This document shows, piece by piece, positions 1 through 14,925 of a stretch of DNA of 64,000 bases. This DNA comes from Dongia deserti (GTDB taxonomy: Bacteria; Pseudomonadota; Alphaproteobacteria; Dongiales; Dongiaceae): the NCBI RefSeq assembly GCF_003574735.1, contig NZ_QORW01000028.1, positions 1-64,000 of the forward strand, in the 5' to 3' direction. Within the stretch, counting starts at the first letter, position 1. Each line of letters starts with the position of its first letter. Made by a program: the position numbers and the translations under genes. The notes below the pieces were generated by a model. It saw only the letters and a list, made by a program, of their open reading frames with translations, made no database searches and had not been told where the DNA came from.

Positions 1-235
1 GAGCGGCAGTGGACAGACGATCACACTGGTTGGCACGCCGAACTTCTCCGGTGCCTTCGTCCAAGCCCAAGACCTCGCCTATGTCGCCTTCACAAGCATC
101 ACCTGGAGCGGCTCGGCGACCGGCACGCGTTACAACGGCTCCGGCAATTCCATAATCCAGACCGCCGGCGGCGGCGCCACCTATCTTCCGGGCAACGCGG
201 CGGGCACCACCTCGACAGGAGCGCAATATCTATGA
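1..235 (+). CDS. C-terminal end of a phage tail-type protein (partial)
   Basis: An open frame enters from the left edge (codons begin at base 2) and ends with TGA at 233-235, leaving 77 residues. The composition is rich in Gly, Ser, Thr, Ala and Asn with few charged residues and ends in the residues GAQYL, which is typical of phage tail fibre or receptor-binding proteins. The next gene starts inside its stop codon (ATGA at 232-235), as in tightly packed phage late operons. The structural role is inferred from composition and neighbours; no catalytic motif is visible and the N-terminus lies outside the window. Confidence 0.6.
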   Translation, partial: SGSGQTITLVGTPNFSGAFVQAQDLAYVAFTSITWSGSATGTRYNGSGNSIIQTAGGGATYLPGNAAGTTSTGAQYL

Positions 236-792
236 AGTCGCAGCGCATCGAGATCGAAAAGGGCGTGTTCATCGACAGATTCGAAGTGGCCGGCTCGCTC
301 GCTGCCGCCCGCCAACCCAGCTCGCTCGCCGGCATTGCCGCCGAGCTGGACCGCAAGAGCTTCAATCCGACGGACTGGTACTGGCAGATCAAGGGCGATG
401 TCGGCTTCGTGTGGTCGAGCGGGCGCAACGCGCGGGTGCCGATCGCGGATCTTGCTTTTCAGGCCTGGCTCGGCGAGGGCGGCAGCCTCACCTACATCGC
501 CTCGATCGAGGAGATGCGCGATGTGTGGGCGCAGCACGGCATGATCCAGGATCCCGCGGCGCAATACCGCATGGCCCGCAAGCAGCGCTACATCGAGGAG
601 CTGCGCAAGCCCGAGGCGTCGGAAGAGCCCAGCTTCGAGAACACCGTCGGCGACGTGCTCGACATCCTCCTGACGCAGGTCGAGGCGATGCGCCAAGTCG
701 CCGGCGCGCCGCCGACGCCGGAGTTCGCCGCGCTGATCCAGCGCATCCAGCAGATCAAGAGCGAAGTGCCGAAGCCCGCGGAGCCGAAGTGA
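232..792 (+). CDS. Phage-associated protein of unknown function
   Basis: This 186-residue soluble protein starts with ATG in a 4-base overlap with the gene before it. The first half (about residues 1-110) contains several Trp and aromatic residues and the segment WYWQIKGDVGFVW. The second half (about 110-186) is predicted to be helical and ends in a Lys/Pro-rich tail. I do not recognise a named family. The position between a tail-type protein and a DUF1353 gene suggests a tail-tip or lysis-module accessory protein of a prophage. There is no signal peptide or membrane segment. Confidence 0.65.
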   Translation: MKSQRIEIEKGVFIDRFEVAGSLAAARQPSSLAGIAAELDRKSFNPTDWYWQIKGDVGFVWSSGRNARVPIADLAFQAWLGEGGSLTYIASIEEMRDVWAQHGMIQDPAAQYRMARKQRYIEELRKPEASEEPSFENTVGDVLDILLTQVEAMRQVAGAPPTPEFAALIQRIQQIKSEVPKPAEPK

Positions 793-1166
793 TGCGCACG
801 ATCGACGACATCCAGGCCATCGTGGACCAGGTGCGCTGCGCGCTGATGCCAAGCTGGCACCTGATCGTGCTGGATGACGGGACCATTTATCTTCAGGTTG
901 AAGACACGGACGCGCGCTGCGCCGTCACCGGCGAGCCGACCGCCTGGCGCGGCCGCAAGTGGCGGCTCTCCTATCACATGACGGAGACGGAGATCGTCTG
1001 CACCGCCTTCAAGGCGCTGCAGGCGGCACTCGATCACGAGCTGCGCGAGCACTTCACCTACAGGGGTGCACGTGTGTTCGACCCGCACCGGTCGATCGCG
1101 CTCTTGGTGGAGATCGCCGGCCGGGCGGACGCGCTAGATGCGCGGGAAGAGGTCGCGCAGCCGTGA
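792..1166 (+). CDS. Phage-associated small protein of unknown function
   Basis: This 124-residue protein has its ATG sharing one base with the previous stop (TGATG), so the two are probably translationally coupled. The frame is open further upstream, but that extension would lie inside the preceding gene and is rejected. The sequence is mixed alpha/beta with the segments LIVLDDGTIYLQVED and EIVCTAFKALQAALDHELREH. No known motif is seen. The following gene starts by GTGA overlap, placing this gene in the middle of a four-gene coupled phage-type unit. Confidence 0.6.
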   Translation: MRTIDDIQAIVDQVRCALMPSWHLIVLDDGTIYLQVEDTDARCAVTGEPTAWRGRKWRLSYHMTETEIVCTAFKALQAALDHELREHFTYRGARVFDPHRSIALLVEIAGRADALDAREEVAQP

Positions 1167-1678
1167 CGCCGGCGAGCCCATATCCGCCCTTCGCCGTCGT
1201 GCCGATCGTGGACTTCGTCTACGAGACCCCCTTGTGGCTCACCCGTGGCATCGCGGCGGTGAAGGCCCGCAGCGGCGAGGATGCGGACTATGTTGTCGGG
1301 CAACCCTACACGATCCGCTATCGCCGCAAGGGCGAAGGCTGGCGTCGCATCACCGTGCCGGAAGGACTGACGACGGACCTTGCGTCGGTGCCGCGCTTCA
1401 TCCGGCCTCTGATCGATCGCGTCGGGCCGCACCTCGAAGCGTCGATCGTCCACGATTACCTCTATGTCGCCTGGCAGGACATCGAGCGATACGAGCCGTG
1501 GGAGCGCGACCGCGCCTTCGCCGACGCGCTGTTCCTCGCCGGCATGGCGGCCGCGCGGGTGCCGCGCTGGAAGCGCTGGACGATCTACGGCGCGGTGCGC
1601 CTGTTCGGCGGCCGCGTCTACCGCGACCGCAACCCGGCACGATATGCACCGATGCCGGCCCTTCAAGGAGTGGGTTGA
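1163..1678 (+). CDS. DUF1353 family protein
   Basis: This 171-residue protein starts with GTG, overlapping the previous stop. The core matches the DUF1353 pattern: a Thr/Asp-Leu-Ala-Ser-Val-Pro stretch (TTDLASVPRFIRPLID) followed by the HDYLY motif and, further on, AFADALFLAGM. DUF1353 proteins are common near the end of phage late operons and in gene transfer agent-like clusters, and their biochemical function is not established. The C-terminal third is rich in Arg and aromatics. Assignment to the family is firm; the role in this module is inference. Confidence 0.8.
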   Translation: MTPASPYPPFAVVPIVDFVYETPLWLTRGIAAVKARSGEDADYVVGQPYTIRYRRKGEGWRRITVPEGLTTDLASVPRFIRPLIDRVGPHLEASIVHDYLYVAWQDIERYEPWERDRAFADALFLAGMAAARVPRWKRWTIYGAVRLFGGRVYRDRNPARYAPMPALQGVG

Positions 1679-1680
1679 GG

Positions 1681-1803
1681 ATGGATACGGCGGTGACGTG
1701 GGGTGACCTCGCAGTGGCGGGCCTGGTTGTGCTGGCCGTCTTGGTCCTCATCGGAGTCTGGGAATGGCTCACCCACAATCCGAATGGGCCGGGTGTTGAG
1801 TGA
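1681..1803 (+). CDS. 40-residue single-span membrane protein
   Basis: A short ATG-initiated frame begins 2 bases after the DUF1353 stop. It encodes one hydrophobic segment of about 20 residues (residues 8-28, mostly Val, Leu and Ala) flanked by a short polar N-terminus and a Trp/Asn-rich C-terminus. Size, topology and location at the end of a phage late-type operon fit a holin-like or spanin-like component, but no sequence motif proves this. It is in frame within a longer shadow frame; the start was chosen for spacing and the DUF1353 boundary. Confidence 0.5.
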   Translation: MDTAVTWGDLAVAGLVVLAVLVLIGVWEWLTHNPNGPGVE

Positions 1804-1904
1804 CTTCCTCGCGGCCGGAACCGGCCGGCGGGGGCCGCGCTGTTGGCGCAGCGCGAACCGCGAGCGTGACCTCGCACGACCATCACCGGCCGAACAATGG
1901 CCGT

Positions 1905-1927
1905 CCCGCCACCCCTGCAGGGGCGGG
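1905..1927. other. GC-rich stem-loop between phage genes
   Basis: A self-complementary segment with CCCC and GGGG arms around a TGCA loop is extended by CCCG/CGGG across a 3-base bulge. It lies in the 146-base gap between the small membrane protein and the adenine methylase. There is no T-run, so it is a weak terminator candidate at best; a processing or attenuation structure is equally possible. Confidence 0.3.
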
Positions 1928-1949
1928 AGAATGATCGTGAGAATCCCTT

Positions 1950-2750
1950 ATGAAATCCTTTCGAGAAGTGGAGCCGGCGCTGCCCGTGGCACCCTACGTC
2001 GGCGGCAAGCGCAACCTCGCCGATCGCCTGATCAAGCGCATCGAGCGCATCCCGCACAGCGTCTATGCCGAGCCCTTCGTGGGAATGGGCGGCGTGTTCC
2101 TGCGCCGCCGCAGCGCGCCCTCGGTGGAGATCATCAACGACCGCAGCAAGGACGTGGCGACGCTCTTCCGCGTGGTGCAGCGGCACTATGTGCCCTTCAC
2201 CGAGATGATCCGTTGGCAGCTCACCACGCGCGCCGATTTCGAGCGGCTGTCGAAGACAGATCCGGAGACGCTGACGGACCTGGAGCGGTCGGCGCGCTTC
2301 CTCTACCTGCAGCGCACGGCCTTCGGCGGGAAGGTCAGCGGGCGCAACTTCGGCGTCTCGTTCCAGCATGCGGCGCGCTTCGACCTGGCGCGCGTGCTGC
2401 CCATGCTGGAGGCGCTGCACGAGCGGCTCAACGGCGTGACCATCGAGTGCCTGCCGTTCGACGCCTTCATCGCCCGCTACGACCGTCAGGGCACGCTGTT
2501 CCTCCTCGACCCGCCCTATTGGGGCAGCGAGAAGGACTATGGCGCGGAGCTGTTCGACCGGGGTTGCTTCGCTGCGCTCGCGGCGCAGCTCGCCGGCATC
2601 AAGGGCAGATTCCTGCTGACCATCAACGACCGGCCGGAGACCCGCAAGCTGTTCGGCCGCTTCAAGATCGAAGCCGTGCAGACCAGCTACAGCATCGCCG
2701 GCGGCCACAAGTCCAAGCGCGCCGGCGAGCTGATCGTCGAGGGGCCGTGA
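1950..2750 (+). CDS. D12-class DNA adenine N6-methyltransferase (Dam-like)
   Basis: This 266-residue protein has the ordered motifs of the D12/Dam family: PYVGGK near residue 15, the SAM-binding motif EPFVGMGG near 40, and the catalytic DPPYW motif near 187, followed by NDRPE near 229. It is expected to transfer a methyl group from SAM to adenine N6 in a short DNA site. No restriction endonuclease lies beside it, so it is an orphan methylase. With the phage-type genes upstream, it is most likely phage-encoded, protecting or marking phage DNA. The recognition sequence cannot be read from the protein. Confidence 0.88.
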   Translation: MKSFREVEPALPVAPYVGGKRNLADRLIKRIERIPHSVYAEPFVGMGGVFLRRRSAPSVEIINDRSKDVATLFRVVQRHYVPFTEMIRWQLTTRADFERLSKTDPETLTDLERSARFLYLQRTAFGGKVSGRNFGVSFQHAARFDLARVLPMLEALHERLNGVTIECLPFDAFIARYDRQGTLFLLDPPYWGSEKDYGAELFDRGCFAALAAQLAGIKGRFLLTINDRPETRKLFGRFKIEAVQTSYSIAGGHKSKRAGELIVEGP

Positions 2751-3193
2751 CAAGCACCTCAGAGGCTGCCTATACTCGGTTTATGGTCCTAGCTGAACAT
2801 GGCCGGCGCATTCGCGTCTTGGTAGTGGATGATGATCCGGGAGTCGCCGCGATCACGCGGCAAATGGCTGAGCAACTAGGCCACGTGGTCGAGTCGATCG
2901 GAGACAGCCGTCTCTTCGTCACGGCCGTCGTCCGATTCAAACCCGATGTCATTATCATCGACGTCCTGATGCCGGAGGTAGACGGCTTCGAGTTGATGCA
3001 GTGCTTGATCGACCTCGATTACACTGGCCACGTGGTGGTCATGTCGGGGGCGGAGAACTATCCGGCGATGGTCGCTTCCATCGCCAAGGCCAAGGGCCGG
3101 ATGACGGTGGCCGCGCTTCACAAGCCCTTTCGCTTGGCGGAGCTGAAGGCTGCGCTCGGGCATGCCGCTGGACGGGGCAGCTCCGAGGGTTAA
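2747..3193 (+). CDS. Stand-alone response-regulator receiver domain (CheY-like)
   Basis: This 148-residue protein consists almost entirely of one receiver domain. The acidic pocket VDDDP lies near residues 25-30, the phosphoacceptor Asp is in IIIDVLMPE near 71, and the conserved Lys is in HKPF near 125. There is no DNA-binding output domain, so it should act by protein-protein contact in a phosphorelay. GTG at 2747 overlaps the methylase stop and has GAGG just upstream; ATG at 2783 is an alternative giving 136 residues. No histidine kinase is adjacent. The overlap suggests co-expression with the methylase, though the receiver may be host DNA at the prophage boundary. Confidence 0.8.
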   Translation: MTSTSEAAYTRFMVLAEHGRRIRVLVVDDDPGVAAITRQMAEQLGHVVESIGDSRLFVTAVVRFKPDVIIIDVLMPEVDGFELMQCLIDLDYTGHVVVMSGAENYPAMVASIAKAKGRMTVAALHKPFRLAELKAALGHAAGRGSSEG

Positions 3194-3309
3194 AATGCCG
3201 CTTTTCGGGGGTTCAAACGGCCGTGGAAGCCCGCTTTTTGGAGGTGCGCAAATCAAGTGTCCGAACTGCGCAATTCATGTGGCGCGCTTCATTAAGCACA
3301 TGCACTGGT

Positions 3310-6230: not shown

Positions 6231-7046
6231 ATGCCGAACCTGCTGGTCAAAGCGAAGAACCCTGGCCCCGACGGCTTGGCCCTGTCCGTGACGCCGGAGA
6301 GCGCGGGCTGGAAGTACGTCGGCTTTCAGGTCTATCGCCGCACCGCAGGCCAGGAGCTCGACTGGAGGATCAGCGGAAAGGAAAGTTGCCTGGTGCTGCT
6401 CTCCGGCAAGGCGACTGCGAGCATCGACGGCAAGGCGCCGGTCGAGATCGGCGGGCGCAAGAGCGTGTTCGAGGGCCCGGGCTGGTCGGTCTATCTGCCA
6501 TCCGATGCCGGCTGCATCTTGCGGACGACCACGGATATCGAGGTCGGCATTTGCACCGCGCCCGGCGGCAGGAAGTTTCCCGCGCGCATCATCCCGCCCG
6601 AGGAAGTGGGATTCGAGGAGCGCGGCAAGGGCACCAATCGCCGCCTCGTTTACAATATCCTGCCGGACACCGCAGCCGCCGAAAGCCTGCTCGTTGTGGA
6701 AGTGGTGACCCCAGGCGGCAACTGGTCCTCCTATCCGCCGCACAAGCACGATCGCGACGCGCTGCCGGAAGAGAGCTTCCTAGAGGAGACCTACTACCAC
6801 CGCCTCAATCCGCCCCAGGGCTTTGCGTTCCAGCGCGTCTATACCGACGACCGCTCGATCGACGAGACGATGGCGGTGGAAGACGGCGATTGCGTGATGG
6901 TCCCGCGCGGATATCACCCGGTCGGTGCGCCGCATGGCTATGATCTGTACTACCTGAACGTGATGGCCGGCCCGAACCGCAAGTGGGTGTTCAAGAATGA
7001 TCCCGCGCATGAGTGGATCGTGAAGCCGAACAAGCAATCAGCCTGA
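6231..7046 (+). CDS. iolB: 5-deoxy-glucuronate isomerase
   Basis: This 271-residue bicupin enzyme converts 5-deoxy-glucuronate to 5-dehydro-2-deoxy-gluconate. The second cupin shows the metal-binding cluster PPHKHD (about residue 166) with a Glu cluster shortly after (PEESFLEETYYHRL), and VPRGYHPVGAPHGYDLYYLNV near 225. Its ATG follows GAGGAG with good spacing, 14 bases after iolE. The next pathway genes (iolC kinase, iolJ aldolase) and the first enzyme (iolG) are not in the window, so the pathway must be completed elsewhere. Confidence 0.94.
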   Translation: MPNLLVKAKNPGPDGLALSVTPESAGWKYVGFQVYRRTAGQELDWRISGKESCLVLLSGKATASIDGKAPVEIGGRKSVFEGPGWSVYLPSDAGCILRTTTDIEVGICTAPGGRKFPARIIPPEEVGFEERGKGTNRRLVYNILPDTAAAESLLVVEVVTPGGNWSSYPPHKHDRDALPEESFLEETYYHRLNPPQGFAFQRVYTDDRSIDETMAVEDGDCVMVPRGYHPVGAPHGYDLYYLNVMAGPNRKWVFKNDPAHEWIVKPNKQSA

Positions 7047-7056
7047 CTATAGGCTG

Positions 7057-7109
7057 TGACGTTTCTGGTACAGGGATTCTGCTTACTCCGGCAAAGTGTT
7101 TGCGATATG
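7057..7109 (+). promoter_or_regulatory. Shared upstream block A (first propeller gene)
   Basis: The block starts with TGACGTTTCTGGTACAG and ends in TTGCGATATG. Closely similar blocks occur at 8790 and 10385, in front of the two paralogous genes. A sigma70-like reading gives -35 CTTACT at 7082-7087 and -10 GATATG at 7104-7109 with a 16-base spacer; the spacer length is the same in all three copies. The conserved part upstream of the -35 may be an activator or repressor site. The leader to the start codon is about 160 bases. Confidence 0.55.
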
Positions 7110-7270
7110 CTCTCCTGCACTGGACGTACTAAGGCACCCGCACGCCAGGTGAGTTCACATCAGTAGCGCGCGCACGATCGCTTCCGGAGTGGCGGCTGAA
7201 GCTATCGGTCGGTGATCTGCAAGGCAGACCGTTAGTAAGCAGACGCGATCCGCTTTACGTGACTACCACT

Positions 7271-8737
7271 ATGCGCTGGTCAGACATGGGGATCGAATCA
7301 GCATCTTCATCGGAGCGGCCCAGTCCTCTGTCGATGTTCGACCGCATTCTCGGCAGGTCGTTCCCTGCTTGGGTCGTGGTCGCGCTTGCTCTCCTGTTCG
7401 CCCTGGGCACCGTGGCGTTCGGCTGGTATGTGAAGAGGTCACTCTATCTCTCCGACAGTAGTGCACCCGCGCGAGCCGCGCTGGCCGTGGCATCGTTTCC
7501 GACCATGGCCAAGGAAGTCTTCTTAGACATCAGAGAAACATTCCGTGGCGAAAAGCCATTCCACTACGTACGCGCGGCCGCGCCGAAACGAGAACTGTCT
7601 GGCCTCTCGCCTTTACCGTCCCAACTCGACGTCGCGGTCGAAGGTCTGATGGTCCGCCGTGGCTCAGGCTTGCCTGCACGCGGCTGGCGCGTCCTCGTCG
7701 GCGGGCTCAAAATCGATGGCTCGATCGAAGATGCCGCGGTGCTGCTCTCTCCTGACCTGGAGATCGTCCATCACTGGCTTCTGGCCGAGGAAGGACCGAC
7801 GAATGCCGAACCTGGCCCGCCGACCGCGAACCTCACGCACGGTTTCACCATGTTGCGCGATGGATCGGTGGTCTTCAACCTTTACGGCGAGAAGGCGTTG
7901 CGCAGGAAGGACAGTTGCGGCCGGACGATGTGGACGAACACTGCAGGCAACTATCATCACAGCGTGGCCGCCGACGAGGCGGAAACGACAGTATGGACAC
8001 TCCGCGAAGACCGGACAGGCGACCCGGCGGAATCGAGCAAGCTCGTTCAGGTCTCCATCGCTGACGGAAGGATCGAACGGGAGATCTCCATTAAAGAAAT
8101 CGTGGCTGCAAATCCGAGCATAGACATCCTCGAACTGAGGCGGGTCCACGAGGAGGCGCCAACGACAAACGATTCCGGTCGCCCTGGTGAGTGGTTGAAG
8201 GATCCGTTCCACCTCAACGATATCAATCCGCTGCCCCGGAGCATCGCCGACAAATTCCCGATGTTTTCGGCTGATGACCTACTCGTCAGCGCGCGAGAGA
8301 CCAATCTGATCTTTGTCGTCAACCCGAACACTCTTGCGATAAAATGGTGGAGCATTGGAGCCTCTATTCGCCAGCACGATCCCGACTGGCTGCCGAGCGG
8401 CCGGGTATCGGTATTCAATAATCGTATGACGCGGGGCTACAGCGAAATCATTGAGATTGATCCCGCCACGAAAGCCAAGACGGTGACCGTGGACGGCAGA
8501 GCTATCGACTTCTACGCGCGCGGCGGGGGGAATCATTCGGTCATTCCGGGAGGCGGCTGGATCATCGCACGCGGCTGGCAAGGCACTGTTACCGAGATAT
8601 CCGATGATGGAAGCATTGCGCTGGAGTTCTACAGCGTACTGGACGACAACGGCCCAATCCTCGGCAAGCTCTCCGAAGCGCTCTTTCTGCCTGAAGAGTC
8701 GTTTGATCTCGCAACACTTCAGTGCGGCAATCCTTGA
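7271..8737 (+). CDS. Membrane-anchored arylsulfotransferase-like beta-propeller, paralog 1
   Basis: This 488-residue protein has one N-terminal membrane span (about residues 32-53) and a large, presumably periplasmic, propeller domain. It resembles the arylsulfotransferase (ASST) superfamily: HHS at 229-230, HLND at 314, SARETNLIFV shortly after, QHD at 369 and an HSVIP motif at 422. These histidines recur in all three paralogs and plausibly form the active site; ASST enzymes use a His to carry sulfate between phenolic donors and acceptors without PAPS. ATG at 7271 was chosen because the other copies also begin MRW; GTG at 7259 is possible. The ribosome site is weak. The substrate is unknown. 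Confidence 0.65.
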   Translation: MRWSDMGIESASSSERPSPLSMFDRILGRSFPAWVVVALALLFALGTVAFGWYVKRSLYLSDSSAPARAALAVASFPTMAKEVFLDIRETFRGEKPFHYVRAAAPKRELSGLSPLPSQLDVAVEGLMVRRGSGLPARGWRVLVGGLKIDGSIEDAAVLLSPDLEIVHHWLLAEEGPTNAEPGPPTANLTHGFTMLRDGSVVFNLYGEKALRRKDSCGRTMWTNTAGNYHHSVAADEAETTVWTLREDRTGDPAESSKLVQVSIADGRIEREISIKEIVAANPSIDILELRRVHEEAPTTNDSGRPGEWLKDPFHLNDINPLPRSIADKFPMFSADDLLVSARETNLIFVVNPNTLAIKWWSIGASIRQHDPDWLPSGRVSVFNNRMTRGYSEIIEIDPATKAKTVTVDGRAIDFYARGGGNHSVIPGGGWIIARGWQGTVTEISDDGSIALEFYSVLDDNGPILGKLSEALFLPEESFDLATLQCGNP

Positions 8738-8789
8738 GTGACGGCTGCAGAGCGCCTGCCACATCGTAAGCGCATCCAACGGCTCTTCA

Positions 8790-8842
8790 TGACATTTCTG
8801 GTACAGAGTTTCCGCTTACCGCCGCAACCGGTATGCGATATT
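8790..8842 (+). promoter_or_regulatory. Shared upstream block B (second propeller gene)
   Basis: This is the second copy of the block, starting TGACATTTCTGGTACAG. The sigma70-like reading has CTTACC at 8815-8820 and GATATT at 8837-8842, spacer 16. It is ungapped relative to block A. It lies in the 182-base gap between paralogs 1 and 2, so paralog 2 can be transcribed independently. Confidence 0.6.
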
Positions 8843-8919
8843 GTTTTTCGGTGCTCGATCGTTTTTGCAACCGACTGTCGTAAAGAGGGTCTGGCACATA
8901 TTCTCAAAGGAGTGCGTGC

Positions 8920-10356
8920 ATGCGCTGGATGGCGCTGCACTCGGGTGCTTCGCCCTCGGTTCTTGAGCGGATTCTCGCCAAGAGACTGCCGCTGTGGCTG
9001 GTTGCGGCCATGGTCATCGTTTTTGCTCTGACGACCGTCCTGTTCGGCTGGCTCGTGAAACGGTATTCCGAGGACGATCAACGTCCGCTTGCGACGCCCG
9101 TACTGGCGATTGCATCCTTTCCAGATGAGACGAAGACAGTGTTCAAAGAGATTGGCCGGATCCTGTCCGGTAAAACGGATTACAGCGCCATCCGCGCCGT
9201 TCCTCCCGACCGCCTGCCCAACGACTTGGTTCCCGTCCCATCCATGCTCGAGGGTGTTGGCGAAGGGCTGATCATGCACCGCGGACCCGGAACGCCGGCA
9301 TATGGCTGGCGCATGATCGCAGGTGTCCTCCAGATCGATGGGTCACTGCAGACTGCCGCCGTTCTCTTGTCCCCTGACCTGAAGATCGTCCACTACTGGC
9401 CTTTGATCGAAGACGGGCCTATCGATGCTGAGATCGGACCGCCGCTGCGCAAGCTGCCGCACGGGGTCGCCGTGCTCCGCGATGGTTCCGTGATCTACAG
9501 CTTCGATGGCGGCGCCTCGCTTCACCGAAAGGATGGATGCGGCCGCACGATGTGGGCGATACCGGGAGAGTTCCATCACACCGTGACACTGGATGACACG
9601 CAGGAGACGGTGTGGGCGTTCCGCTACAACGCCGATGGCGATCCTTCCGAAATCTCGAAAGTCGTCCAGATCGCGACAGCGGACGGCGCGATCATGAAGG
9701 AGTTCTCGATAGCCGACGTCATATCCGCAAATCCGAAAATCGACATTCTCGAGCTGCGCCGCTTTCATCCGGACGACATCGGCGGCAATTCCGAAGGAAA
9801 AGCCGGTCACTGGCATGCTGATCCGGTTCACCTGAACGATACCGACCCGCTGCCCCGGAATTTGGCGGACAAGTTCCCGATGTTCGCACCCGGCGATCTG
9901 CTCATCAGCGCGCGCGAGATCAACCTTCTTTTCGTGCTCGATCCCGTCACGCTTGCGATCAAGTGGTGGCGGGTGGGTGCTACGATCCGGCAGCACGACG
10001 GCGACTGGGGTAGAGATGGCCAGATCTCCGTATTCAACAACCGGACCGCGCGCGGTTACAGCGAGATCGCGAAGATCGATCCGGAGACATTCGCCAGCTC
10101 GGCGGCTATCGACGGCCGGGGCATCGATTTCTATACGCGCCGCAGGGGCCAGCACCAGGCCCTTCCCAACGGCAATTGGTTGATCACCAGCACGCAGCAG
10201 GGCCGTATCATCGAAGTGTCACCGCGCGGAGATGTTGTGCTGGATTTCTATAACCGCACAAAGGAAGAAGGCCTGGCGTTCACCATGCTCTCGGCTTCCG
10301 CCTTCTTCCCCGACGGAACCTTCAATTCAGATGCGTTCCAATGCGATGGAAGATAG
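8920..10356 (+). CDS. Membrane-anchored arylsulfotransferase-like beta-propeller, paralog 2
   Basis: This 478-residue protein has a membrane span at about residues 24-46. The conserved set is HHT (219-220), HLND (304), SAREINLLFV with Arg 332, QHD (359) and HQALP (412). It is very close to paralog 3, with the same MRWMALHS start, the same segment order and an almost identical length, so the two come from a recent duplication. ATG follows AAAGGAG with ideal spacing. Most of the protein consists of alternating strand-like segments expected of a propeller. The function by family is sulfate transfer or sulfate-ester binding outside the inner membrane; this is inferred from motifs, not shown. Confidence 0.68.
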   Translation: MRWMALHSGASPSVLERILAKRLPLWLVAAMVIVFALTTVLFGWLVKRYSEDDQRPLATPVLAIASFPDETKTVFKEIGRILSGKTDYSAIRAVPPDRLPNDLVPVPSMLEGVGEGLIMHRGPGTPAYGWRMIAGVLQIDGSLQTAAVLLSPDLKIVHYWPLIEDGPIDAEIGPPLRKLPHGVAVLRDGSVIYSFDGGASLHRKDGCGRTMWAIPGEFHHTVTLDDTQETVWAFRYNADGDPSEISKVVQIATADGAIMKEFSIADVISANPKIDILELRRFHPDDIGGNSEGKAGHWHADPVHLNDTDPLPRNLADKFPMFAPGDLLISAREINLLFVLDPVTLAIKWWRVGATIRQHDGDWGRDGQISVFNNRTARGYSEIAKIDPETFASSAAIDGRGIDFYTRRRGQHQALPNGNWLITSTQQGRIIEVSPRGDVVLDFYNRTKEEGLAFTMLSASAFFPDGTFNSDAFQCDGR

Positions 10357-10384
10357 CGCTAAGCACCGGCTAACTGCGGATCTA

Positions 10385-10438
10385 TGACATTTCTGGTACA
10401 GAGTTTTCTGCTGACCGCTGCAACCGGCTTGCGATACT
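10385..10438 (+). promoter_or_regulatory. Shared upstream block C (third propeller gene)
   Basis: This is the third copy of the block, starting TGACATTTCTGGTACAG. It carries one extra T relative to A and B before the -35 region. CTGACC at 10411-10416 and GATACT at 10433-10438 are again separated by 16 bases. Because the indel falls between the upstream motif and the -35, the promoter core is preserved, which supports the promoter reading. Confidence 0.6.
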
Positions 10439-10534
10439 ATCGCCGCATCGTGAGGGGGCACTCAGGGAGTCCTTTGTAACCGGGTATCGTCGTCCGAAGA
10501 GGGGCGGACACGAAGTCTCAAGAGGAGTGCTCGC

Positions 10535-11974
10535 GTGCGCTGGATGGCGCTGCACTCAGATTCTTCGCCCTCCGTTCTCGAGCGGATTCTCGCCGTGCGA
10601 GTGCCGCTGTGGCTGGTTGCGGCCATAGTCATCTTCTTCGCGCTGGCGACTGTCTCGTTCGGATGGCTCGTGATGCGGTCCGCGAACGACGAGCGCCCGC
10701 TTGCCAAAGCGGCATTGGCGGTCGCCTCCTTTCCGACCGAAACAAAGGCCGTGTTCAAGGAGATTGCCCGGATCCTGTCGGGAAAACCGGATCACGGGCC
10801 TGTCATGGCATATCCGCCCGAGCAATCGTGGTCCGAGTTCCAGCCCGTCAAGTCCAGGCTCGAGGGTGTCGGTGAGGGCCTGCTCATGCGCCGAGGGCCA
10901 GCCACGCCGGCGCGCGGCTGGCGGGTCATCGCGGGCGCGATGCAGATCCATGGATCCCTCCAGACCGCGGCCGTGCTGTTGTCTCCGGAGCTGGAGATCG
11001 TCCACTACTGGCCCTTGATCGAGGACGCCGAGATCGGAGCGCACTACTCGCGTCCGTTACGGAAGATGCCGCACGGGTTGGCCGTGCTGAGTGACGGCTC
11101 CGTGATCTACAATTTCGACGGCGGTGCCTCGCTGCACAGGAAGGACATCTGCGGCCGTACGCTTTGGGCCGTTCCAGGCGACTACCATCACAGCATAACG
11201 TCGGACGACACGGAAACGACGGTGTGGACGCACCGGGACGACGAGACCGGAGACCGCGCCCAAAAGATGCATCTCATGCAGGTCGCGACGGCTGACGGCA
11301 GGATCGTGAAGGATATCTCCGTTCCCGACATCATAGCGGCCAATCCGGACATCGACATTCTGGAGCTGAGGCGGCTGCATACACCCGACAAGACAGGAAA
11401 CACCAGGGAGAGGCCCGGCCGATGGATGAGTGACCCCATTCATCTGAACGACATCGACCCACTGCCGCGCAGCCTCGCGGATCGGTATCCCATGTTCTCG
11501 CCCGGCGACCTCCTCATAAGCGCACGCGAGCTCAATCTTCTCTTCGTCATGGATCCTGAGAGCCTCGCGATCAAATGGTGGAAAGTAGGAGCGACCATTC
11601 GGCAGCACGACAGCGACTGGAATACGGACGGTCGCCTCTCGGCATTCAACAATCGGATGTCGCGCGGATACAGTACGATCACGAAGATCGATCCAGCTAC
11701 GCTCGCCAGGAGCGTCGCAGTGGACGGCCGCGGCATGGACTTGTATTCGCGGCACCGGGGCAGCCATCAGCCCCTTCCCAACGGCGGCTGGTTGATCTCA
11801 AGCACCCAGCAAGGCCGAATACTCGAGGTTTCGCCTGACGGCAAAGTCGCACTGGATTTCTACAGTCGACTGACCGGCGACACCCCTCTCTACAGCATGC
11901 TTTCCACCTCAGTCTTCCTACCTGAAGACGCCGTTGATCCGGGAGCTCTGAAATGTGGCGTAAACTCACAGTAG
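10535..11974 (+). CDS. Membrane-anchored arylsulfotransferase-like beta-propeller, paralog 3
   Basis: This 479-residue protein starts with GTG after AGAGGAG and begins with the same residues as paralog 2. One membrane span lies at about residues 23-45. The invariant motifs are HHS (218-219), HLND (303), SARELNLLFV, QHD (358) and HQPLP (411). Its 3' end overlaps the next gene by 22 bases, so it heads a coupled chain of propeller, two small membrane proteins and sulfotransferase. That chain ties this copy, more than the other two, to a PAPS-dependent sulfotransferase and suggests a role in making or moving a sulfated cell-surface or secreted product. Confidence 0.68.
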   Translation: MRWMALHSDSSPSVLERILAVRVPLWLVAAIVIFFALATVSFGWLVMRSANDERPLAKAALAVASFPTETKAVFKEIARILSGKPDHGPVMAYPPEQSWSEFQPVKSRLEGVGEGLLMRRGPATPARGWRVIAGAMQIHGSLQTAAVLLSPELEIVHYWPLIEDAEIGAHYSRPLRKMPHGLAVLSDGSVIYNFDGGASLHRKDICGRTLWAVPGDYHHSITSDDTETTVWTHRDDETGDRAQKMHLMQVATADGRIVKDISVPDIIAANPDIDILELRRLHTPDKTGNTRERPGRWMSDPIHLNDIDPLPRSLADRYPMFSPGDLLISARELNLLFVMDPESLAIKWWKVGATIRQHDSDWNTDGRLSAFNNRMSRGYSTITKIDPATLARSVAVDGRGMDLYSRHRGSHQPLPNGGWLISSTQQGRILEVSPDGKVALDFYSRLTGDTPLYSMLSTSVFLPEDAVDPGALKCGVNSQ

Positions 11975-12183
11975 CTACGTGTCTCGTTCTCACGGCCGGT
12001 CCAGCCGCGGCCTATATCGGGCCTGGTGTCGGCGCCGGGATGATCGCGACGGTGCTCGGCATCCTGACCGCAATCGCATTGGCCGTGGTTGCCATCGTGT
12101 GGTACCCGCTCAAGCGGCTGCTCAAGAGGAACGCGCATTCTTCGACGGCAACGAAGGTGATCGACGATAGCCGAGAAACATGA
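11953..12183 (+). CDS. Small membrane protein with YIGPG motif
   Basis: This 76-residue protein has an N-terminal signal-like segment (residues 1-20, ending in AAA) followed directly by YIGPGVGAG. A membrane span at about 29-50 and a basic motif, WYPLKRLLKRN, precede a polar tail. Small proteins of this pattern occur beside surface-polysaccharide and phosphoryl/sulfuryl-transfer genes in several proteobacteria; their role is unknown. It overlaps the propeller gene by 22 bases and the following gene by 4 (ATGA), which strongly supports it as a real, co-translated gene. Confidence 0.7.
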   Translation: MWRKLTVATCLVLTAGPAAAYIGPGVGAGMIATVLGILTAIALAVVAIVWYPLKRLLKRNAHSSTATKVIDDSRET

Positions 12184-12563
12184 CCCTCGCGCTCCTTCTT
12201 GTCGTCACGATTGCGGTGGCCGAGTGCGCGTCGCACCTTCCGCTGCTGGCGATCTCAAGGCGCTTCGCCGGCATATTCCCGCGCGCGCTTCGGACGGTTC
12301 GCAACGCCAAGGCGTCCGATCACTGGAAAGAGATGGCGCTGCTGAAGCTCGCGAGATTGTCGCTGATCTCTTCAGGGTGCGCCGCCGGCGCGATTCTCGG
12401 CATCGTCGCCTTGTTCGTCGGCGGCATCTACGTCTTGGATCTGGTCTCGCCTCGCCTCTGGGAGCTTGCCATGAGCATCGAGGGTATCAGCATCGCATCT
12501 GCTGCCGCTATCCTGTATCTTGCGGCGAGGTCCCATGCAAGGTCACTCCTACAACGCCGTTGA
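12180..12563 (+). CDS. Three-span membrane protein of unknown function
   Basis: This 127-residue protein begins by ATGA overlap with the preceding gene. Hydrophobic segments are seen at about 2-24, 55-87 (a long segment rich in Gly, Ala, Ile and Val) and 96-116, with a basic loop between the first two and a basic C-terminus (ARSHARSLLQRR). No family is recognised. It overlaps the sulfotransferase start by 29 bases, so expression of the three proteins is probably coupled. It may form a membrane platform with the YIGPG protein; that is speculation from context. Confidence 0.6.
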   Translation: MTLALLLVVTIAVAECASHLPLLAISRRFAGIFPRALRTVRNAKASDHWKEMALLKLARLSLISSGCAAGAILGIVALFVGGIYVLDLVSPRLWELAMSIEGISIASAAAILYLAARSHARSLLQRR

Positions 12564-13620
12564 ACGCGCCCTGCACTATCTCGCGCTCGGATCGAAGCCG
12601 GTTGCGGAGCTCACCTTCGATCTGAACGCTGTCCTGTCTTCCCGCGGGAAGCAGGTCAAGGTGGATGATCGGCACGTCTTCGTGTCCGGCTTGGCGCGCG
12701 CGGGGACGACCATCATCATGCGTCGGCTGCACGAAACGGGCATGTTCCGATCGCTGACCTATCGGGACATGCCGTTCGTGCTCTGCCCCGATCTTTGGGC
12801 ACGACTCTCGGCGCACTCCCGGCGGAACATCGACGCCGTCGAGCGCGCGCATGGAGACCGGCTGCAGGTGGACGCAGACAGTCCCGAAGCACTCGACGAA
12901 GTCTTCTGGCGCGTGTTCGCGGGCGTCGACTACATCAAGCCAGATCATCTCTGTGCCCATGCCGCGGATGCCGAACTCATCGAGAAGTTCCGGCTTTACA
13001 TTTCGTGCATCCTTCGTCCGCACGACGGTCGCAGCCCGCAGAAGCGATACCTGTCCAAGAACAACAACAACATCCTGCGCCTGAACACCCTACAGGCGGC
13101 GTTTCCCGAGGCGGTCATCTTGATTCCCTTTCGCGATCCGCTCCAGCACGCCATCTCCCTGCTCAATCAGCACGCCAAATTCTGCACGATGCAGAAAGAG
13201 AGTCGGTTTGTGCGGTCGTACATGACGTGGCTTGCCCATCACGAGTTCGGCCTTGAACACAAACCGTTCTGGTTCGACACGAAGAAGCCATTCGAAAAGC
13301 CCACCCATCCCGAGAGCAGCATCAACTACTGGCTCGAGACCTGGCTCAGAACCTATCGCCGGATCCACGAAAGCAGGCCCGCAAACAGCCTGCTGGTCTG
13401 CTATGAGGATCTGTGTTCCGATCCCGCCGTCTGGAGCGCGATTCTTGAGCGCCTCGGTATCGAGAATCGAGTGACCGATCCAGGCCAACCATTCTCCCGC
13501 GCCGAAAACAGGACAGCGCCGGACATAGACATGCCGCTCTTGGAACGTGCCCGTGGCCTGTACGGCGCGCTGCGTCAAGATTCCGCACACGCTCTCGGTC
13601 GATCGCGAGCACGCCAGTAG
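12535..13620 (+). CDS. PAPS-dependent sulfotransferase family protein
   Basis: This 361-residue protein has the 5'-phosphosulfate-binding loop near the N-terminus (SGLARAGTT, about residues 51-59, the equivalent of PxSGTT). A later segment, IPFRDPLQHAISLLNQH near 196, matches the 3'-phosphate-binding Arg/Ser region. Family members move sulfate from PAPS to hydroxyls of glycans, lipids or small molecules in the cytosol. ATG at 12535 follows GGCGAGG; a TTG 15 bases earlier is less likely. Neighbouring ASST-like genes suggest a shared sulfated product. The C-terminus ends only where the deleted propeller remnant begins, so its last residues may derive from a recombination junction. Confidence 0.8.
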   Translation: MQGHSYNAVERALHYLALGSKPVAELTFDLNAVLSSRGKQVKVDDRHVFVSGLARAGTTIIMRRLHETGMFRSLTYRDMPFVLCPDLWARLSAHSRRNIDAVERAHGDRLQVDADSPEALDEVFWRVFAGVDYIKPDHLCAHAADAELIEKFRLYISCILRPHDGRSPQKRYLSKNNNNILRLNTLQAAFPEAVILIPFRDPLQHAISLLNQHAKFCTMQKESRFVRSYMTWLAHHEFGLEHKPFWFDTKKPFEKPTHPESSINYWLETWLRTYRRIHESRPANSLLVCYEDLCSDPAVWSAILERLGIENRVTDPGQPFSRAENRTAPDIDMPLLERARGLYGALRQDSAHALGRSRARQ

Positions 13621-14007
13621 CCGCCACATGCTGGCGCATCCTTGCCGGCGTGCTCGGGATAAGCGGGTCGCTCCAGACTGGCGCCGTCCTGCTGTCGCCG
13701 GACCTCAAGATCGTCCATCATTGGCCCCTGTTCGGGGACGGCAAGATCGACGCCGAGTTCGACGCGCCCCCGCGGAGGATCCCGCATGGCCTCAGCCTGT
13801 TGGCGGATGGATCCGTCATCGACACGTTCGATAACGGCTCTTCTCTGCACAGGAAAGACAAGTGCGGCCGCACGATGTGCGCGATCTGCGCTGGAGTTCT
13901 ACAATCGGACAACGGGCGACGTGCCGTTCTACACGATACTTTCCTCGGCCAACTTCCTCCCGGAGGAGTCGCTCACGCTGGACGCTTTCCAATGTGGCGA
14001 ACCCTGA
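13621..14007 (+). pseudogene. Remnant of a fourth arylsulfotransferase-like gene
   Basis: Translation of 13629-13880 gives a clear match to the second quarter of the propeller paralogs (WRILAGVL, LLSPDLKIVHHWPL, RKDKCGRTMCAI). At about 13880-13890 the sequence jumps, with a frame change, to the extreme C-terminus of the family (LEFYNRTTGDVPFYTILSS, ending FQCGEP and TGA at 14005-14007). The N-terminus with its membrane span and roughly 220 central residues, including every conserved histidine motif, are missing. No copy of the shared upstream block precedes it. It is a decayed duplicate and cannot encode an active enzyme. Confidence 0.85.
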
Positions 14008-14028
14008 TGGCTCGCGATCAGGTGAGTT

Positions 14029-14925
14029 CTATCCCTTCTTCTCGTTCCACTTTCCGAGGATGTCGACCATAGTCGGCACGTAATCCTCGCCGTGCCCCGC
14101 ATTGTCCGCCATCGCATAGGCTTGGTGGATCGCCTGCGCGACCGGCGTGGCGACGGCCAGGCTCTCGCACATGTGGACGAAATAGCGCACGTCCTTGCTG
14201 GCGTTAGCGATGGCGAAGCGCAGCTGCGTGTTGTCGCTCTCGATCGCATAGGCCGCGAGGCGCTGGAACATCACCGAATTGGCGCCGCCGCCGCTCACGA
14301 CCTCGCGGAGCGCCTTGAGGTCGATGCCGCCCTTCTTGGCCGCGAGCAGCGCCTCCGCGGTCACCATGCCATAGCCAAGGCTCAGCATATTGTTGACCAG
14401 CTTCACCTTGTGGCCGGCGCCGACATCGCCGCAATGGACGATGAGGTCGGAGAAGCACTCCAGTACCGGGCCGATCTCCGCGAGGGTCGCCGGGTCACCG
14501 CCGGTCATCAGGCCGAGCTTGCCCGCCTCCGCCTCCTTCGGCGTGCGGGTCATCGGTGTGTCGACGAAGCGGCCACCCTTGGCCCGGATAGCCTTGGCGA
14601 TCTTCAACGTGGAGTCCGGCATCGCGGTCGTGCAATCGGCCATGATCGTGCCCTTGTGCACGCCCGCCAGAATGCCGTCCTCTCGGAAGACGATGTCCTC
14701 GAGCTGGGTCGAGTTACCCACGACGGTGATGACGAGGTCGCTGGCGGCCGTGATCTCCTTGGGGCTTTTCAGCTCCTTGGCGCCCTTGGCGACCAGGTCC
14801 TCGACCGGCCCGCGGTTGCGATGCGCAAACACATTGAGCGCATAGCCTTTGCTGAGGATGTTCTTGCCGATGCCGTGGCCCATCAGGCCGACGCCGATCA
14901 AACCAATGCGCTCCGGTTTCGCCAT
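14029..14925 (-). CDS. NAD(P)-dependent beta-hydroxyacid dehydrogenase (3-HIBDH family)
   Basis: This 298-residue protein has the N-terminal Rossmann motif GLIGVGLMGHGI (residues about 7-18). It also has the family's substrate-binding TPMTRTPKEAEAGKL region near 123 and the catalytic Lys helix GAGHKVKLVNNML near 170. Members reduce or oxidise 2-hydroxy-3-oxopropionate, 3-hydroxyisobutyrate or related acids. It is last in a long minus-strand operon for sugar-acid breakdown, where it could act on a tartronate semialdehyde-like or aldehyde product. ATG at 14925 follows AGAGG; longer frames run into the SDR gene. Exact substrate unknown. Confidence 0.82.
   Translation of the reverse strand: MAKPERIGLIGVGLMGHGIGKNILSKGYALNVFAHRNRGPVEDLVAKGAKELKSPKEITAASDLVITVVGNSTQLEDIVFREDGILAGVHKGTIMADCTTAMPDSTLKIAKAIRAKGGRFVDTPMTRTPKEAEAGKLGLMTGGDPATLAEIGPVLECFSDLIVHCGDVGAGHKVKLVNNMLSLGYGMVTAEALLAAKKGGIDLKALREVVSGGGANSVMFQRLAAYAIESDNTQLRFAIANASKDVRYFVHMCESLAVATPVAQAIHQAYAMADNAGHGEDYVPTMVDILGKWNEKKG

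Follow-up and report, generated by a model that had tools for sequence, protein, structure and literature searches.

What might a bacterium gain by encoding, side by side, an enzyme that draws sulfate from 3′-phosphoadenosine 5′-phosphosulfate (PAPS) and enzymes of a type that works independently of PAPS? The question is raised by a 7.0-kb segment of Dongia deserti, lying in the 64,000-nucleotide stretch of contig NZ_QORW01000028.1 that was analysed here (positions 1 to 64,000; hereafter the window). The segment contains three tandem genes for β-propeller proteins resembling aryl sulfotransferases (ASSTs), followed by genes for a microprotein with the motif YxGPG (YIGPG in this copy), a three-span membrane protein, and a PAPS-type sulfotransferase (Table 1). 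An earlier note on this DNA had proposed that the two kinds of enzyme act in a two-stage sulfate relay, in a layout for which it knew no described parallel. We find that the last propeller and the three genes behind it form a widespread module rather than a local oddity, and we consider it probable, if narrowly so, that this module is a transmembrane sulfation relay, in which the PAPS enzyme inside the cell would make a phenol sulfate from which the outer propeller would sulfate an acceptor in the envelope.

Searching genomes for the block, as the earlier note had suggested, recovered it widely, and several patterns emerge. First, the same genome has a second block adjoining rpoC (named by eye), composed of a propeller, a YVGPG protein, a 238-residue membrane protein and a sulfotransferase, so that the layout is not peculiar to the array in the window. 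Secondly, with the sulfotransferase of the window as the anchor, matches were found in 13 other genomes among 385 of the class, with a propeller nearby in 10 of them (weakly in L049 with the first queries) and a YxGPG gene in 11; in the six other genomes of the family with a sulfotransferase match, the YxGPG gene is present in all six and the propeller in five. Thirdly, with the YxGPG protein as the anchor, the 398 genomes of the phylum yielded matches in 16 other than D. deserti; 14 of these matches are strong (E<1e-16), and all 14 have a sulfotransferase nearby and 13 a propeller. The two weak matches are a partial one beside a sulfotransferase (G113) and a YVDPG protein without partners (G503); this search scored at most 13 candidates per genome, so genomes without a match prove little. 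The YxGPG profile was itself built from sulfotransferase-anchored loci and carries the tyrosine, such that the rows found are biased towards tyrosine and the two anchorings are not wholly separate lines of evidence. A chance neighbourhood was considered and rejected in view of the two-way linkage.

The distribution extends well beyond the phylum. An alignment scan of named genomes with the sulfotransferase gave 358 relatives, the best 80 of which were analysed, and 75 of these 80 loci carry both a propeller and a YxGPG gene within 6 kb; at four of the misses (L092, L094, L098 and L110) the locus runs off a contig end, and one, in Pseudoxanthomonas (L160), is a true miss. Represented among these best 80 of 358 are Sphingomonas, Novosphingobium, Halioglobus, Mariprofundus, SAR86, SUP05, SAR116, Prochlorococcus, Synechococcus, Mucilaginibacter and Daejeonella, together with bins labelled Planctomycetaceae, Nitrospina, Chitinispirillaceae and Desulfobacteraceae, which are possibly mislabelled. 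Gene order was tallied in 108 loci, after removal of four recognised duplicates and without counting the window's own block: the order propeller, YxGPG, membrane protein, sulfotransferase is found in 69, and the same order with the membrane gene unrecognised or fused in 15, the remainder having two propellers first (4), the membrane protein and sulfotransferase ahead of the propeller and YxGPG gene (3), the sulfotransferase alone (4), or rarer forms (13). The YxGPG gene is on the same strand as a propeller in 94 of 103 cases and starts right behind it in 89 of 103; the propeller follows the sulfotransferase in L079 and L155 and is on the opposite strand in L127, L131 and L137. The loci with tandem propeller pairs ahead of the YxGPG gene (L090, L095, L100 and L138; 4 of 108) indicate that propeller duplication within the module recurs. 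We also note that two genomes of only 1.2 Mb (G221 and G113; loci L041 and L043) retain the sulfotransferase, one with the full block and the other without a propeller and with a partial YxGPG match, and its retention in such small genomes speaks for real use. No description of the module was found in the open-licence PubMed Central (PMC) literature, judged by titles and the openings of abstracts, and a description outside that set is possible.

The propellers are assigned to the family PF14269 (Arylsulfotran_2; cut-off 27 bits), and an AlphaFold2 model of propeller 3 (21-row alignment; mean predicted local distance difference test score, pLDDT, 78.8) indicates an ASST-like fold. The closest solved structure is Cpz4, with Z scores of 27.0–27.4 over 310–315 aligned residues at a root-mean-square deviation (rmsd) of 3.6–3.8 Å, well above all others; the E. 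coli ASST is second (Z 22.5, 324 residues, rmsd 4.0), and Foldseek also places Cpz4 and ASST on top. A fold unrelated to ASST, which the earlier note had said would refute its proposal, was thus not what the model gave. The N-terminal membrane anchor claimed in that note agrees with a helix at residues 25–51 of the model; the N-terminal β-sandwich of the E. coli enzyme was not found, residues 1–100 being mostly helix and coil, partly at low confidence.

The likeness extends to the active site. In the E. coli ASST, His436 is transiently sulfated, with His252, His356, Asn358, Arg374 and Thr501 around it (PMC13426309; here and below, statements from cited papers refer to the available parts of those sources). 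In profile alignments, the QH of the propellers falls on chain position 436 of the E. coli ASST, and the HxN, SxR, QHD and FDN motifs align with Cpz4. His358 of propeller 3 is therefore the equivalent of the sulfo-histidine, and it is histidine in 108 of 108 propellers, as H219, H303, N305 and N373 are also kept in all 108 that have a residue there; R331 is kept in 103 of 108. The HxN and SxR motifs are near-invariant, and their match to the E. coli numbers, like that of HH to His252, is by order and motif alone: because the E. coli ASST was not among the matches (E≤0.1) of a profile built from 12 propellers of the rpoC-block and stand-alone types, the equivalents of His252, His356 and Arg374 are assigned by motif only. 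The four invariant histidine motifs of the earlier note are real, and the conserved set is better described as HH, HxN, SxR, QHD and FxN, for whose histidines homology to ASST and Cpz4 suggests the clustering in one pocket that the note had made a condition of its proposal. That the propellers are no longer enzymes and serve as binding or scaffold proteins, as many propellers do, seems to us very improbable: their identity to solved ASSTs is 12–19% and R331 is changed in five cases, which would suit such a loss, but 102 of 109 propellers retain every one of the five active-site positions H219, H303, N305, R331 and H358, and of the seven that do not, two are cut fragments.

In 109 rows of the microprotein (101 distinct exported parts; L049 and L087 weak), the tyrosine of YxGPG is invariant (109 of 109, a count biased by the tyrosine in the search profile), the two glycines are kept in 108 and 109 and the proline in 107, with one membrane span and a basic tail following. 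The residue after the tyrosine varies (I, V, T, L, M, S or G), and the residue preceding it is alanine in 97 of 104. An AxA before the cleavage point is the pattern of signal peptidase I, and since AxA precedes the tyrosine, the exported protein is predicted, by eye, to begin with this residue; an invariant tyrosine that would open an exported protein is a new feature. The first 12 residues are devoid of acidic residues in 99 of the 101 distinct sequences. No Pfam family scored above the cut-off for the YIGPG protein and two relatives (three members).

The sulfotransferase belongs to PF13469 (cut-off also 27 bits) and contains GLARAGTT, which we take to be the PAPS-binding loop motif; three adenosine 5′-phosphosulfate (APS) kinases score above the cut-off in the same genome, so PAPS can be made. 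Its AlphaFold2 model (mean pLDDT 90.9) is nearest to the mycobacterial STF9 (Z 17.7) and STF1 (17.0), then to the protein-tyrosine sulfotransferases TPST1 and TPST2 (15.2–15.4), scores then falling to 13.3 with the curacin sulfotransferase, about 12.8 with heparan sulfate enzymes and about 10 with cytosolic SULTs. The sequence alone gave nothing significant against PDB (best E 0.059; STF1 0.081), and a 32-row profile placed TPST1 at the top with an E value of 3.2e-13. This apparent resemblance to protein-tyrosine sulfotransferases is new. In a short profile alignment, HRYRDFP of the module enzyme lies opposite EETRVIP of TPST, a stretch that presumably holds the catalytic glutamate; this residue seems not to be kept, which argues against classing the enzyme as a TPST, and the substrate is therefore not readable from the sequence. 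A further difference from TPST is in the candidate substrate, as TPST substrates usually carry acidic residues near the tyrosine and the YxGPG proteins mostly have none there. Also new are fusions of the membrane protein to the sulfotransferase, the two forming one open frame in L097, L114 and L154 (recognised by hydrophobic stretches, with SDHWKE as a further mark in L097 and L154).

The mechanism that we propose starts from what was computed, namely the four-gene unit, the predicted fold, the conserved active-site residues, the invariant tyrosine, the fusions and the insertion described below. The sulfotransferase, tethered to the inner membrane through the three-span protein, would move sulfate from cytosolic PAPS to a phenolic hydroxyl. 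The phenol sulfate, presented across the membrane, would be the donor to the anchored propeller, whose active-site histidine (His358 in propeller 3) would receive the sulfuryl group and hand it to an envelope acceptor, most plausibly a surface glycan. The donor that an ASST requires is an aryl sulfate, and tyrosine sulfate is one; within the module the likeliest carrier would be the YxGPG protein, by way of the invariant tyrosine at its predicted exported N-terminus. We put forward, as a tentative possibility, that this is a sulfate-carrier microprotein: its tyrosine would be sulfated by the membrane-tethered sulfotransferase, before export or through a membrane complex, and the sulfo-tyrosine outside would donate to the propeller histidine, which in turn would modify the envelope. 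Sulfation before export is possible, as for RaxST and RaxX.

A relay of this kind has a precedent. In caprazamycin biosynthesis the PAPS sulfotransferase Cpz8 produces phenolic sulfate esters, and these supply Cpz4 (PMC4257720); Cpz6 is the source of the pyrones (PMC6560455). This precedent was not known to the earlier note, and it is the module itself that is uncharacterised within the literature searched. As in that system, one gene set combines a PAPS-dependent sulfotransferase with an ASST-like propeller of the PAPS-independent type, and Cpz4 is the nearest structure to propeller 3. Unlike the module, caprazamycin belongs to a Streptomyces antibiotic pathway, the carrier is a small pyrone from a type III polyketide synthase, and the available parts of these sources mention neither a YxGPG nor a three-span protein; the coding parts of the segment, scanned against Pfam, gave no type III polyketide synthase. 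With this precedent and the conserved sulfo-histidine the relay proposed in the note is plausible, while its action in series and the locations of the enzymes, and with them the topology, order of events, carrier and acceptor, are what we infer.

The caprazamycin pyrone also bears on an alternative, which we think doubtful, that the sulfate travels on a phenol (tyramine, a hydroxybenzoate or a quinol), diffusible or soluble in the membrane, made elsewhere in the genome, with the YxGPG and three-span proteins providing an export path or scaffold; the glycine-rich YxGPG span could conceivably pack as an oligomer, as such a role would suggest. However, a gene for making a phenol is absent from the module, and the invariance of the terminal tyrosine (109 of 109 rows) would go unexplained. 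A tyrosine shuttle, for its part, has precedent, since acyl groups are carried on tyrosine in DltX, a membrane microprotein whose invariant tyrosine near the extracellular end carries D-alanine from DltB to DltD, and in PatA, whose C-terminal tyrosine carries acetyl to PatB (PMC12148441). The YxGPG protein would resemble DltX as a membrane microprotein whose invariant tyrosine, predicted to be at its outer end, would serve an extracytoplasmic transferase with a covalent enzyme intermediate. It differs in that DltX carries an acyl group and not sulfate, has its tyrosine near the C-terminus in an FXYXXF motif, and needs an MBOAT protein, which the module does not encode; in place of FXYXXF and MBOAT and SGNH partners we find YxGPG at the N-terminal end, and a propeller, a membrane protein and a sulfotransferase as partners. 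One characterised aryl sulfotransferase is listed with tyrosine-containing peptides as substrates (table in PMC13426309).

The E. coli CFT073 ASST (3ELQ) shares with the module the propeller fold and the sulfo-histidine position; it has an N-terminal β-sandwich, a disulfide that is needed, and DsbL/DsbI in its operon (PMC13426309), in contrast to the N-terminal membrane helix and the PAPS sulfotransferase partner of the module. Small sulfated phenols are the presumed substrates of that enzyme (PMC13426309), which would be compatible with a further alternative: the sulfotransferase would sulfate a lipid-linked glycan before export, the propeller would independently add or redistribute sulfate outside from environmental or metabolic aryl sulfates, and the genes would be linked by a common polymer with no hand-over between them. 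The neighbours at some loci point the same way, the block of L147 (SAR86) lying amid glycosyltransferases, an EpsG-family protein and an epimerase, L088 beside a protein of the polysaccharide synthesis and export family PF01943, and L043, a sulfotransferase without a propeller, beside an acyltransferase. We nevertheless judge it unlikely, as it leaves unexplained why there is a YxGPG microprotein and why its gene so regularly starts right behind a propeller (89 of 103), and no glycan gene was found at 7 of the 10 loci partly scanned.

Several points weigh against the relay that we favor. First, the module has no gene for a small phenol, and the glycan genes just described occur at 3 of the 10 partly scanned loci (20 neighbours), the other neighbours being unrelated (gyrase A, alanine racemase, S41 protease, LysE and radical SAM) or, in 5 of 20, without a Pfam match; a surface glycan as the acceptor is thus our best guess. 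Secondly, sulfation before export would spend one protein per sulfate, and a path through a membrane complex is not evident because the module has no MBOAT-like channel. Thirdly, the enzyme activities are predicted from homology and models: the ASST Z score of 22.5 is tied with those of unrelated propellers (megalin 21.9), the latter over only about 250 residues, and R331 is changed in 5 of 108 propellers. Fourthly, the components are separable. The YxGPG and sulfotransferase genes occur without a nearby propeller in L044, L050 and L054, where contig ends do not account for the lack, and in L094, which is cut, and in L084 a PF01663 phosphodiesterase-like gene takes the propeller's place. Conversely, in class samples of 385 and 372 genomes, 13 of 25 propeller-positive genomes have no sulfotransferase, and the propeller family as a whole is accordingly not dependent on the block. 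Three more propellers in the D. deserti genome (L014:6440-7864, C12; L015:4865-6769, C51; L017:5646-7100, C3) likewise have no block in the 14 kb around each; these stand-alone propellers might draw on a relay elsewhere in the genome. The arrangement at L084:7492-10467 consists of the YxGPG gene, the PF01663 gene and the membrane protein gene, with the sulfotransferase on the other strand, and from this locus the outer enzyme seems exchangeable.

The organization of the D. deserti segment is given in Table 1. The tandem of three full-length paralogs described in the earlier note is borne out, all three scoring above the PF14269 cut-off, as is the overlapping chain that follows: the YIGPG gene starts inside propeller 3, the start of the three-span gene and the stop of the YIGPG gene share ATGA, and the sulfotransferase gene starts before the three-span stop.

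Table 1. Features of the D. deserti segment, in window coordinates
Feature	Position	Strand	Remarks
Segment between iolB and the 3-hydroxyisobutyrate-dehydrogenase-like gene	7028..14035	.	Two congeners have no such segment at the corresponding site
Upstream repeat 1	7057..7108	+	79% match to copy 2; promoter-like or regulatory role possible
Propeller 1, ASST-like, membrane-anchored (predicted)	7271..8737	+	PF14269, 99 bits; ATG start from MRW alignment; GTG at 7259 possible but less likely
Upstream repeat 2	8790..8841	+	Aligned to the other copies
Propeller 2, ASST-like	8920..10356	+	PF14269, 101.5 bits
Upstream repeat 3	10385..10437	+	Aligned to the other copies
Propeller 3, ASST-like; the module proper begins with this gene	10535..11974	+	PF14269, 106.8 bits; AlphaFold2 model
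YIGPG microprotein, 76 residues	11953..12183	+	Predicted signal peptide ending AAA, then Tyr-Ile-Gly-Pro-Gly, one span, basic tail
Three-span membrane protein, 127 residues, SDHWKE loop	12180..12563	+	Spans judged by eye
PAPS-type sulfotransferase, 361 residues	12535..13620	+	PF13469, 59 bits; start at 12535 chosen, TTG at 12520 the alternative
Fourth propeller, a remnant lacking its start and middle	13623..14007	+	69% identity over query residues 127-214; C-terminal piece at 13888

Propellers 2 and 3 are 65% identical and propeller 1 is 51–53% identical to both. The ratio of nonsynonymous to synonymous substitution (dN/dS) among them is 0.23–0.29, so all three look maintained; dead duplicates were rejected on this ground, though dS is high (1.1–1.7). 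The fourth copy, corresponding to about residues 127–214 of propeller 2 and then the C-terminal end, is decayed. Each of the three propellers is preceded by an element of about 50 bp, whose first 22 positions recur nowhere else in the 6.1-Mb genome when up to three mismatches are allowed. Upstream copies 1 and 2 are 79% alike, against 67–68% for the coding sequences of these two propellers where they align. The element is possibly a common promoter, or it may have been duplicated simply along with the genes; a sigma-54 promoter was considered and rejected, the spacing not fitting the consensus when judged by eye. The array adds two propellers with a common upstream element to the module, perhaps for further acceptors.

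Two congeners lack the segment at this site: their alignments to the window break off after 7027 and 7025, pick up at 14036 and 14038, and leave 139 and 217 bp in the gap. No match to propeller 2 at E≤1e-20 was found in the 16 other genomes of the family, several of which have the rpoC-type block, and the G+C content at third codon positions is 0.70–0.76 in the segment versus 0.79–0.88 in eight adjoining genes. The simplest reading is that the segment is an acquired insertion, loss in the relatives being the alternative. It is flanked on the left by iolE and iolB, of myo-inositol breakdown, with an iolD-like frame named by eye, and on the right by a 3-hydroxyisobutyrate-dehydrogenase-like gene. 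Just upstream of the iol genes, window positions 1–3200 contain genes resembling a prophage end, including a DNA-adenine-methylase-like frame (1950–2750) and small phage-like frames, as well as a response-regulator-like frame, all named by eye.

For most bacterial aryl sulfotransferases, neither the natural acceptor nor the physiological role is known (PMC13426309). The four-gene unit ties such an enzyme to a PAPS enzyme and a tyrosine-bearing microprotein; it occurs in several phyla, with Prochlorococcus and SAR86 among its marine representatives, and so makes the question testable in cultured strains. The relay, if true, would explain the sulfate source of a poorly understood outer enzyme. 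If the tyrosine is the carrier, sulfation driven by PAPS could take place outside the cytoplasm without external PAPS, by the logic of envelope-polymer acylation, and the microprotein would be a sulfate counterpart of the DltX acyl-tyrosine shuttle, providing a built-in donor for ASST-like enzymes from Prochlorococcus and SAR86 to the Bacteroidota; a sulfo-tyrosine microprotein of this kind would be a new way of moving sulfate across a membrane.

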